From assembly GCA_024518585.1 (NCBI GenBank), contig JANIHI010000005.1, positions 1 to 64,000 on the forward strand: a stretch of DNA of 64,000 nucleotides, written 5' to 3'. Every line of letters begins with the position of its first letter. Position 1 is the stretch's first letter. Positions 7,351-10,387 of this stretch are shown piece by piece. This DNA comes from Methanolinea sp. (lineage in GTDB: Archaea > Halobacteriota > Methanomicrobia > Methanomicrobiales > Methanospirillaceae). The notes below the pieces were generated by a model that was not told where the DNA came from, searched no databases, and saw nothing but the letters and a program-made list of their open reading frames with translations. The translations under genes were made by a program, and so were the position numbers.

Positions 7351-7794
7351 ATGGATACCCCGACCTGGTCATTTCTCCCGCCCCGGAAGGTGGCTTACCT
7401 CAAGTTCCTGCGGGAGCAGGGGAATACCGCAAAGGCAGGAGAGATAGCGGCCCACTTCTCGGTCGACCCCTCGACGGTCACAAAGACCGTCCATGAACTC
7501 GCCGCCGCAGGCCTCGTCGACCACCAGCGGTATGGCAGGGTCACCCTCACGGAGGAGGGGATTGCACACGCCGACTTTCTCATCTGGCGTCACCGTATCC
7601 TTGGCCTCGTCCTGTCCCACCATGGTCTTGAGGGTGATGAGGCGTGCGAGGAGGCAGAGCGGTTCGAGTGTTACGTCTCGCACCAGGCAGTCCGAAAGAT
7701 GTGTTCATCGCTGGGGCACCCGAGGAGGGGAATATGCGGGGCCATCCACCACGAGGGGTGGTGCGGGGTTGAGAGAGAAAATGACGTCGCTTGA
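7351..7794 (+). CDS. DtxR/MntR-family metal-dependent regulator
   Basis: A 147-aa transcription regulator starting at MDTPTWSFLPP (ATG 7351); the frame extends 23 codons upstream, but that part is promoter DNA. The N-terminal winged helix (TAKAGEIAAHFSVDPSTVTKTVHELAAAGLVDHQRYGRVTLTEEG) and the dimerisation/metal-binding part (HRILGLVLSHHGLEGDEACEEAERFECYVSHQAVRKM) are typical of DtxR/IdeR/MntR proteins, with His, Glu and Cys ligands in place. It heads the operon with a metal ABC transporter and overlaps the next gene by 14 nt. It probably represses the operon when its metal (Mn, Fe or Zn) is plentiful. There is no SH3-like third domain. Confidence 0.9.
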   Translation: MDTPTWSFLPPRKVAYLKFLREQGNTAKAGEIAAHFSVDPSTVTKTVHELAAAGLVDHQRYGRVTLTEEGIAHADFLIWRHRILGLVLSHHGLEGDEACEEAERFECYVSHQAVRKMCSSLGHPRRGICGAIHHEGWCGVERENDVA

Positions 7795-8746
7795 GGGTGT
7801 TCCAGGAATGGAGGGCAAACAGGCAGACCACGGCACCGCTTCTTTCGTCCCGGTCATCCTGGTATTTGGCCTTCTCCTCGCGGGTATGGTACTGTCCTGC
7901 TGTTGCGTGGGAAAGGAGACGAAAAATGCCACCAGCGGGCAGGAAAAGGTAGCAGCAGTAACGATCCTGCCCCAGAGGGACCTCGTCCGGGAGATCGCTG
8001 GGGAGAACTGGACAGTCATGGTTGTCGTCCCTCCCGGTGCCGATCCCCATACCCATGAACCGACTGCCACCGAGATCGCCCGCCTGGGAAGGGCAGACGT
8101 GTACTTCAGGCTCGGACCCGGCCTCCTCCCCTTCGAAGATGTCCTCGTCGCACGCCTCGTGGCGCAGAATCCCGGGATGCTGATTGTTGATACGTCGGCC
8201 GGCATCCCCCTCATCCACGAAACCGGTGAAGAGACCGGGGGTGGTGCCGGTGAGCATGGCGCGGACCCCCACGTCTGGTTGTCCCCCTCCGGCCTGCGCA
8301 CCATGGCAGAGAATGTCTTCGAGGGTCTGTCAGGACGGGATCCCACCCACCGGGAGGACTACCGTGCGCGCACGGATGCGTACCTCCGCAGGGTCGATGC
8401 ATGTGAGGAATCGATCCGGAAAAGGATTGCAGGCCTCGAAGGGAGACCTTTCCTCGTTTCTCACCCGGCATGGGGTTATTTCGCAAGGGAATTCGGACTT
8501 TCCCAGGTCTCCATCAACGGGGAAGGAAGGGAACCGACCGCACGGGAACTCTTCCAACTGGTCTCGTATGCCCGGGAGGAGGGAATACGGGTGGTATTGA
8601 CCGAACCCGAGTTCAGCGCGAGGGAGAGCGAGGTCATTGCGAGGGAGGTCAATGCGTCCGTTGTCGTCATTGACCCCCTGGCACCAGACGTCCTTTTGAC
8701 TCTCGAGCGGATGGCAAAGGCAATTGCAGACAGCTACGTGGCCTGA
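7781..8746 (+). CDS. metal ABC transporter substrate-binding lipoprotein (ZnuA-like)
   Basis: A 321-aa solute-binding protein of the cluster 9 (Zn/Mn) family. An N-terminal hydrophobic stretch ends in LSCCC, a lipobox-like site, so it is probably tethered outside the membrane. Metal-ligand signatures are visible: PPGADPHTHEPT, the short His-containing loop HETGEETGGGAGEHGADPHVWLSP, FLVSHPAWGYFA and LTEPEFSARES with a final acidic VVIDPLAPD. The start was placed at ATG 7781, which overlaps the regulator gene; ATG 7808 is an alternative. The substrate (zinc or manganese) cannot be settled from sequence. Confidence 0.92.
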   Translation: MTSLEGVPGMEGKQADHGTASFVPVILVFGLLLAGMVLSCCCVGKETKNATSGQEKVAAVTILPQRDLVREIAGENWTVMVVVPPGADPHTHEPTATEIARLGRADVYFRLGPGLLPFEDVLVARLVAQNPGMLIVDTSAGIPLIHETGEETGGGAGEHGADPHVWLSPSGLRTMAENVFEGLSGRDPTHREDYRARTDAYLRRVDACEESIRKRIAGLEGRPFLVSHPAWGYFAREFGLSQVSINGEGREPTARELFQLVSYAREEGIRVVLTEPEFSARESEVIAREVNASVVVIDPLAPDVLLTLERMAKAIADSYVA

Positions 8747-8750
8747 CGGG

Positions 8751-8760
8751 AAGGGGTGAG
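8751..8760 (+). promoter_or_regulatory. Shine-Dalgarno that fixes the ACG start of the transporter ATPase
   Basis: aaggggtgag is a near-perfect match to the anti-SD of archaeal 16S rRNA and lies six bases before an ACG codon at 8766. In this frame there is no ATG, GTG or TTG between the stop at 8757 and a TTG at 8901, which lies beyond the Walker A motif. Confidence 0.55.
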
Positions 8761-8765
8761 AGCGC

Positions 8766-9536
8766 ACGGTTCCAGCAATCGAGGTCCGGAATGTCTCCTA
8801 CTGGCGGGGCAAAGAGCAGGTCCTGAACAACGTCTCCCTCGTTGTCAGGGAGGGGGACTTCTATGCCCTGATCGGGCCAAACGGCGGGGGAAAGACCACT
8901 TTGCTCAAGATAATTCTCGGTCTCTATGCCCCTTCCAGCGGCACGGTCAGGATCTGGGGGGAGCCACCCTGGAAGGGCAGGGAGAGGATAGGGTATGTCC
9001 CCCAGTTCCGGACCTTTGACTTCTCCTACCCTATCACCGTGAGGGAGATGGTGCTCTCCGGCAGGCTCTCGCGCATTTGCGGCGCGTGGAAGAGGTTCAC
9101 CACCGCCGACAGGAGGGCCGTTGAAGAAGTGCTCGAAAGGCTGGCACTTGCTCCGCTGGCCGACCGCCCCATCGCCAGCCTCTCGGGCGGGGAGCAGCAG
9201 AGGGCCATCCTCGCGCGGGCCCTGGTGGGAAAACCCGACATCCTGCTCCTCGATGAACCGACAGTCTTTATCGATGCCCCGACCGAGGTCCAGTTCTTTG
9301 ACCTGCTCGATGACCTCCGTGAATCCCTCACGATCCTCCTCGTCAGCCATGATATCGGGGTCATTTCGCGGCGTGTCACCCGGGTCGCCTGCCTCAACCG
9401 TACCCTCCATACGCACGACACGCCGGAGATCACAGAGGACATGCTCGAGGCCACCTACCACTGCCCCGTCGACCTCATAGCCCACGGGCTCCCCCACCGG
9501 GTGCTGAAACATCCCTGGGAAGGAGGGGGGAGGTAA
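8766..9536 (+). CDS. metal ABC transporter ATP-binding protein (ZnuC-like), apparent ACG start
   Basis: The frame encodes TVPAIEVRNVSYWRGKEQV, then Walker A IGPNGGGKTTLL, signature LSGGEQQRAILARAL, Walker B ILLLDEPT and H-loop LLVSHDIG: a complete 256-aa ATPase if translation begins at ACG 8766. The first conventional start (TTG 8901) would delete Walker A, so it cannot be the true one. A GTG at 8756 is in another frame. Either ACG is used, helped by the strong Shine-Dalgarno, or the sequence carries a substitution or an indel at the start. It energises uptake by the downstream permease and lies in the same operon. Confidence 0.85.
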   Translation, partial: TVPAIEVRNVSYWRGKEQVLNNVSLVVREGDFYALIGPNGGGKTTLLKIILGLYAPSSGTVRIWGEPPWKGRERIGYVPQFRTFDFSYPITVREMVLSGRLSRICGAWKRFTTADRRAVEEVLERLALAPLADRPIASLSGGEQQRAILARALVGKPDILLLDEPTVFIDAPTEVQFFDLLDDLRESLTILLVSHDIGVISRRVTRVACLNRTLHTHDTPEITEDMLEATYHCPVDLIAHGLPHRVLKHPWEGGGR

Positions 9537-9541
9537 GGCCG

Positions 9542-10387
9542 ATGGACCTTGGAATCCTCTCGTCAGGGTTTTTCCAAAACGCTCTCATGGCCGCGGTCCT
9601 CTCGAGCGTGGCGTGCGGAATCATCGGGAGCTACGTCGTCGTCAAGAGAATGGTCGCGGTCAGCGGGGGCATCTCCCACGCGGCGTTCGGTGGGGTTGGG
9701 ATAGGGTACCTCCTGTCGGTAGACCCCTTTGGAAGCGCTCTCGCGTTTACCTCTCTCGTCGGACTGGGAATAGGGATCATGAGGGAGAAGGCACACCAGG
9801 AGATTGACACGCTGATCGGGGCAGTCTGGGCAGCCGGGATGGCCCTTGGGGTGGTATGCATCAGCCTTGCCCCGGGCTATGCCCCAGACCTCTTCAGCTA
9901 CCTCTTTGGAAATATCCTCCTCGTGCCCTCCCAGGATATCCCGTTGATGGCGATCTTCTCCCTCATCGTTGTCCTTGTCGTCGTCTTCCTCTACGTCCCA
10001 CTCCAGGCAGTCACGTTCGACGAAGAGTATGCGCGGGTCATGAACCTCCCCGTGTCCGGCCTCTCCCTCCTCCTCCTCCTGATGGTCGCCCTGACCGTCG
10101 TGATGCTCATCCGCATCGTGGGCATCATCCTCGTGATCGCCCTCCTCACCCTGCCAGCAGCAACCGTTCGCTCCTACGTTTCCCGGCTCCCCGAGATGAT
10201 GGTCGCGTCCGTTGCCCTCTCCCTGGTCCTCTCGCTGGGCGGGCTCTTCCTCTCGTATGCCTGGAACATCCCCTCGGGTGCGACGATCATCCTCCTGGCC
10301 ACTCTTGTGTACGGTGTATCACTTGCCCTCTCCCGCCTCCCGATCAGCGGGGGCGGGGGAGGCGGCACTGGCAGCGGCCGATCGTAA
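9542..10387 (+). CDS. metal ABC transporter permease (ZnuB-like)
   Basis: A 281-aa integral membrane protein of the ABC-3 permease family, with about eight hydrophobic segments and the conserved GIIGSYVVVKRMVAVSGGISHAAFGGVGIGYLL motif region near the N-terminus, then LLTLPAATVRSYVSRLPEMM near the end. It starts 5 bp after the ATPase and closes the four-gene metal operon. The last 44 bp overlap tail-to-tail with the MFS gene on the other strand, a glycine-rich C-terminus ([13 protein letters not shown]) being the shared part. Confidence 0.93.
   Translation: MDLGILSSGFFQNALMAAVLSSVACGIIGSYVVVKRMVAVSGGISHAAFGGVGIGYLLSVDPFGSALAFTSLVGLGIGIMREKAHQEIDTLIGAVWAAGMALGVVCISLAPGYAPDLFSYLFGNILLVPSQDIPLMAIFSLIVVLVVVFLYVPLQAVTFDEEYARVMNLPVSGLSLLLLLMVALTVVMLIRIVGIILVIALLTLPAATVRSYVSRLPEMMVASVALSLVLSLGGLFLSYAWNIPSGATIILLATLVYGVSLALSRLPISGGGGGGTGSGRS

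Follow-up and report, generated by a model that had tools for sequence, protein, structure and literature searches.

The ATP-binding subunit of a metal-type ABC transporter in a Methanolinea-like archaeon is probably translated from an ACG codon by near-cognate initiation. This reading of the sequence was the core of the original prediction. It is supported by the start sites of relatives, the Shine-Dalgarno spacing, the onset of coding character, and the intact conserved protein. Taken alone, an ACG start is a rare case of a known type. It is valuable because it pointed the way to the gene of initiation factor aIF1A, which seems, from sequence comparison, to start at a CTG codon in many related archaea.

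The metal transporter locus

The gene lies in the window, which is the whole stretch of 64,000 nucleotides that was analysed. The window belongs to contig 12 of a Methanolinea-like draft genome (G000; 1,777,328 bases, 27 contigs). The gene order is DtxR/MntR-like regulator, ZnuA-family binding protein, ABC ATPase, and ABC-3 permease (Table 1). PF00005, PF01297, and PF00950 all scored over the cut-off in one gene run, which identifies a metal ABC transporter of the ZnuABC/MntABC kind. The ATPase resembles the ZnuC, AztA, and MntA-type ATPases in its domain, motifs, and gene neighbourhood; however, it differs in scoring below all the curated NCBIfam equivalog cut-offs listed, namely AztA (166.7 versus 220), MntA (166.5 versus 400), and ZnuC (148.5 versus 306). 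The metal of the transporter was therefore left unassigned.

Table 1. Genes of the transporter locus and sequence elements at the ATPase start (window coordinates).
Feature	Position	Strand	Remarks
DtxR/MntR-like metal-dependent regulator	7351..7794	+	PF02742 and PF01325 over cut-off; listed ORF begins at GTG 7282
ZnuA-family substrate-binding protein	7781..8746	+	PF01297, 204 bits; start 7781 or 7808
Shine-Dalgarno GGGGTGA	8753..8759	+	six-base spacer to ACG; pairs with 16S 3' end; score 6.5
In-frame TGA	8757..8759	+	blocks any start farther upstream
Proposed ATPase start codon ACG	8766..8768	+	ATG/GTG/TTG aligned in 7/11 genus relatives, ACG in G006
Metal-type ABC ATPase (ZnuC/MntB-like), 256 aa	8766..9536	+	Walker A, Q-loop, LSGGE, Walker B, and H-switch present
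First canonical start in ATPase frame, TTG	8901..8903	+	after Walker A
ABC-3 family permease	9542..10387	+	PF00950, 240 bits

Sequence features of the ATPase start region

After the TGA, the ATPase frame reads GAG CGC ACG GTT CCA GCA ATC GAG. As originally described, no ATG, GTG, or TTG precedes Walker A (GPNGGGKT, residues 37-44): none occurs between the TGA at 8757 and the TTG at 8901. The protein from ACG also has the expected length, with 256 residues plus a stop at 9536 and 771 bases open. The 3' end of the G000 16S rRNA is GGATCACCTCC, so that GGGGTGA can form an uninterrupted run of seven pairs, including one G-U pair. Calling this Shine-Dalgarno sequence near-perfect was fair (GGGGTGA versus GAGGTGA), and it does lie six bases before ACG. 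A sequence as strong at a suitable distance was found at 847 of 97,081 internal in-frame codons (0.9%), and at 15 of the 1,950 internal ACG codons; ACG makes up 1.9% of the codons sampled. When the best canonical start of each sampled G000 gene was scored, 7% of these starts scored as high.

A special RNA structure at the start was rejected, as both regions folded more weakly than their shuffles (199/200 shuffles of 8700-8820 and 194/200 of 8740-8800 folded at least as well). The weak folding suits an open ribosome site.

The start site in related genomes

The ATPase was found in 12 of 13 genus genomes, and the 11 relatives other than G000 were compared. Aligning the same site in related strains had been proposed as a check on the prediction. 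The codon aligned with ACG 8766 is ATG in G010, G008, and G005, GTG in G002, G011, and G009, and TTG in G012; six of these seven relatives have no other canonical start upstream to the in-frame stop. Three others (G007, G001, and G004) have a non-start codon at the aligned site, with an ATG farther upstream instead, at a distance of seven, two, and two codons, respectively. Because the canonical starts align codon for codon, the relatives fix the initiation site, and G000 has ACG there.

The remaining relative, G006, is a different species (74% protein identity) and also has ACG at the site. Its ZnuA stop and ACG are as far apart as in G000, and its Shine-Dalgarno sequence is GGGGGTGAT. Its frame is open upstream of ACG, where a GTG preceded by GGAG stands ten codons away; thus, the ACG in G006 need not be the start. 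Among the 11 relatives, ACG occurs at the site once, in G006 with its alternative GTG upstream, beside seven canonical codons and three shifted starts.

In a tree of the three transporter proteins, the clade of G000, G006, G010, and G007 has 100/100 support, with G000 branching as the sister of the other three, and the grouping of G006 with G010 is weak (31.9/59). One ACG inherited by sister species is unsupported, since G000 and G006 are not sisters in the tree. Because G010 has ATG, the ACG may have arisen twice, or may be ancestral and then reverted, or its presence in G006 may be a coincidence. G006 and G010 (L011 and L012) also show further starts, ten and eight codons upstream, which overlap the end of the ZnuA gene. 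The start of the ATPase may accordingly move between species.

The main rival explanation is that the true codon is ATG, with the C due to an error in the consensus of the draft or to a minor variant. This is consistent with a draft genome of 27 contigs and with relatives that mostly have ATG, GTG, or TTG at the site, and a single base would restore an ordinary start. However, a different species has ACG in the same place with the same geometry, and the gene is otherwise open over its whole length. Such an error is considered unlikely.

The original prediction had also raised an indel that would put the GTG at 8756 in frame. The G006 sequence makes this unlikely, as it keeps the stop-to-ACG distance and a similar Shine-Dalgarno sequence. 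This GTG also sits inside the Shine-Dalgarno sequence, without a good one of its own ahead, and the indel was rejected.

Integrity of the gene and other explanations

Between the ATPase genes of G000 and G006, the differences at codon positions 1, 2, and 3 are 0.205, 0.157, and 0.449. Over the comparisons with G006, G010, and G007, they range from 0.205-0.252, 0.138-0.160, and 0.444-0.480, respectively. The divergence pattern is like that of the permease, and the change is slower than in the binding protein. This comparison shows an intact protein under purifying selection. The lack of a canonical start could mean that the start codon has been lost and that the ATPase, in early decay, is no longer made in useful amounts. 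This explanation is improbable, as the frame and all the ABC motifs are intact, the change is biased to the third position like that of the permease, the neighbouring genes are intact, and the strong Shine-Dalgarno sequence has been retained.

A start elsewhere was judged slightly less probable still. The ATC at 8778 is a candidate, since ATC is known as a weak start of infC in Streptomyces (mentioned in the accessible text of PMC5472188), but it is 18 bases from the Shine-Dalgarno sequence. Use of the TTG would delete Walker A, and the relatives begin exactly at the ACG position. Reinitiation past the ZnuA stop is favoured by its short distance (the stop ends 19 bases upstream of ACG), but it would still require a start codon, most likely the same ACG. 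Archaeal mRNA is not known to undergo C-to-U editing, and conversion of ACG to AUG in the mRNA, as in some chloroplast genes, is hardly credible here.

Initiation at ACG is thus the preferred reading, and the following mechanism is proposed. The strong Shine-Dalgarno sequence would place the 30S subunit at the ACG. The initiator Met-tRNA (anticodon CAU) would read this codon as near-cognate, with a single mismatch in the middle position, so that the ATPase would begin with Met. On general grounds, ACG would be read as methionine less often than ATG. We infer the reading as Met, a yield below that of ATG, and any regulatory use. The ACG most likely goes back to an ATG in this position, through a single T-to-C change. 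It is possible, as the original prediction suggested, that the ACG would limit synthesis of the ATPase relative to its partners. The strong Shine-Dalgarno sequence and the weakly folded site could compensate for it.

Census of genes without an early canonical start

The census covered 464 kb of G000 (26% of the genome), made up of the window and a further 400 kb, in which 351 genes were called by codon usage. The first canonical start lies at least 12 codons past the coding onset in 15 of the 351 genes. Ranked by the coding score ahead of the first canonical start, the ATPase is first of all (12.8), and the gene of aIF1A is second (11.0). The presence of this second gene without a canonical start in the same genome was counted in favour of the ACG reading.

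Ranks three and four are interrupted genes (scores 9.6 and 4.3), and both were rejected as cases of non-canonical starts. The first, at L102:641-1561 (+) on contig 8, is a UDP-GlcNAc 2-epimerase-like gene broken by TAG, with transposase-like remains upstream (both named by eye, without a family search); it looks like a pseudogene. The second, at L105:8326-8811 (-) on contig 14, is a prenyltransferase-like gene, presumably UbiA, which is cut by TAA and has no clean upstream frame; it is likely a pseudogene. The other 11 genes, with scores of at most 3.0, were taken for onset noise.

A conserved CTG at the proposed start of aIF1A

The aIF1A gene is on the minus strand of G000 contig 1 (27853-28221; L100:7853-8221). 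From the upstream stop as far as codon 47, which is inside the conserved core, its frame contains no ATG, GTG, or TTG; GGAGTTGATTGG is followed by CTG. All ten genus copies of this paralog (L120-L129) have CTG at the site. The conserved CTG behind GGAGTTGAT or GAGGTGAT was also found across the order and at many other loci of the phylum. For the order, 120 genomes were searched (118 with a match) and 69 loci were read; for the phylum, 148 genomes were searched (145 with a match) and 50 loci were read. These are the loci returned per search together with regions picked for genus spread, not all matches. With 24 genus loci added and duplicates taken out, 136 aIF1A loci were obtained; as far as judged, none belongs to the halophile families (Haloarchaea).

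When any codon was allowed behind the best GGAGGTGAT-like 9-mer, CTG came next in 69/136 loci, and in 48 of the 59 loci without a canonical start in reach. With start-like codons only and a pairing score, CTG was chosen in 54/58 loci without a canonical start. When the 9-mer rule was applied to 350 G000 genes, ATG was the commonest codon (40), and CTG was outside the first ten. In several loci (L187, L189, L196, L197, L198, and L205), TAA stands directly before the CTG. The same site has TTG in some lineages (such as L216, L230-L232, and L271) and ATG in L225, L226, L233, and L234, as expected if it is the start. Three aIF1A matches each were seen in the family genomes G022, G105, G112, and G126, pointing to repeated duplication. 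An unusual start of aIF1 was rejected, as an ordinary ATG is at the expected place in all 6 loci counted out of 12 in the genus, including G000; the other 6, which lay in the opposite orientation, were left out of the count.

A second aIF1A paralog was found in G000 (L141; contig 21, 63196-63510) and at ten further genus loci. It has a conserved ATT at the matching start place, and most copies have an in-frame TGA close before it. A leader motif lies just before GGAG in 11/11 loci. Most leaders contain the predicted stem GGGGAU...AUUGUUCCC, and the predicted folds vary. The ATT is a candidate only, because in many copies translation could also begin at an internal ATG or GTG located four codons ahead of the core.

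By analogy, the CTG of aIF1A resembles the ATT start of the bacterial infC gene, which is autoregulated; to our knowledge, IF3 is not homologous to aIF1A. We infer that aIF1A would autoregulate in a similar way, and that the ACG gene would answer to the same stringency. In a wider and tentative form, the aIF1A genes of this phylum might keep a conserved CUG start (perhaps AUU in some paralogs) behind a strong Shine-Dalgarno sequence and tune their own synthesis through start-codon stringency, as the archaeal counterpart of infC; genes such as the ACG-started ATPase might then rely on the same relaxed initiation for their translation and be made in larger or smaller amounts as it changes.

The non-canonical start of aIF1A, being conserved far beyond the genus, would matter more than the ACG gene. 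Deep conservation of a non-AUG start in an initiation-factor gene suggests that the start-codon check may have come to govern its own synthesis in each of the two domains, archaea and bacteria. Cultured members of the phylum would allow this reading of aIF1A to be tested directly. The ACG start in an archaeal chromosomal gene, if true, widens the range of natural starts used by the eukaryote-like archaeal initiation machinery. Because gene finders assume ATG, GTG, or TTG, genes of the ACG or CTG type would be truncated or missed.

Comparison with known systems

Neither an ACG-started archaeal chromosomal gene nor a non-AUG start of aIF1A was found in the open-licence literature searched. A survey of start-codon changes in 36 genome groups started from 61,358 ancestral AUG starts, and the changes were 363 to GUG, 113 to UUG, two to CUG, and one to AUU; the word ACG is absent from the accessible part of this survey (PMC5622118). 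The factor aIF1 reportedly helps S. solfataricus to discriminate against non-canonical starts (PMC6237735). An ACG-started gene should therefore be sensitive to the levels of initiation factors.

The chloroplast genes rpl2, psbL, and ndhD have ACG where ATG is expected, like the ATPase here, and in those genes RNA editing turns ACG into AUG (PMC9845219); the making of starts in plant chloroplasts by this route is what speaks for editing as an explanation. Two features of infC and sigR-kind genes were found in the ATPase, namely the lack of a full-length product from ATG, GTG, or TTG, and a suitably spaced Shine-Dalgarno sequence. Like the ATPase, sigR of Streptomyces is an ordinary protein-coding gene with a non-canonical start and a strong Shine-Dalgarno sequence (extended AGGAGGTG in sigR). 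Its GTC start is repressed by IF3, as proven by experiment, and is conserved across species (GTC in 32/34), according to the accessible sections of PMC5472188. It differs from the ATPase in being bacterial, in having an experimentally proven start, in using GTC instead of ACG, and in its demonstrated regulation by IF3. The infC gene of E. coli starts at ATT and is autoregulated by IF3 (described in the available part of PMC5472188). Because it encodes a translation factor and its non-canonical start is conserved, it parallels aIF1A and not the ATPase; autoregulation is known for infC, whereas for aIF1A it is hypothetical.
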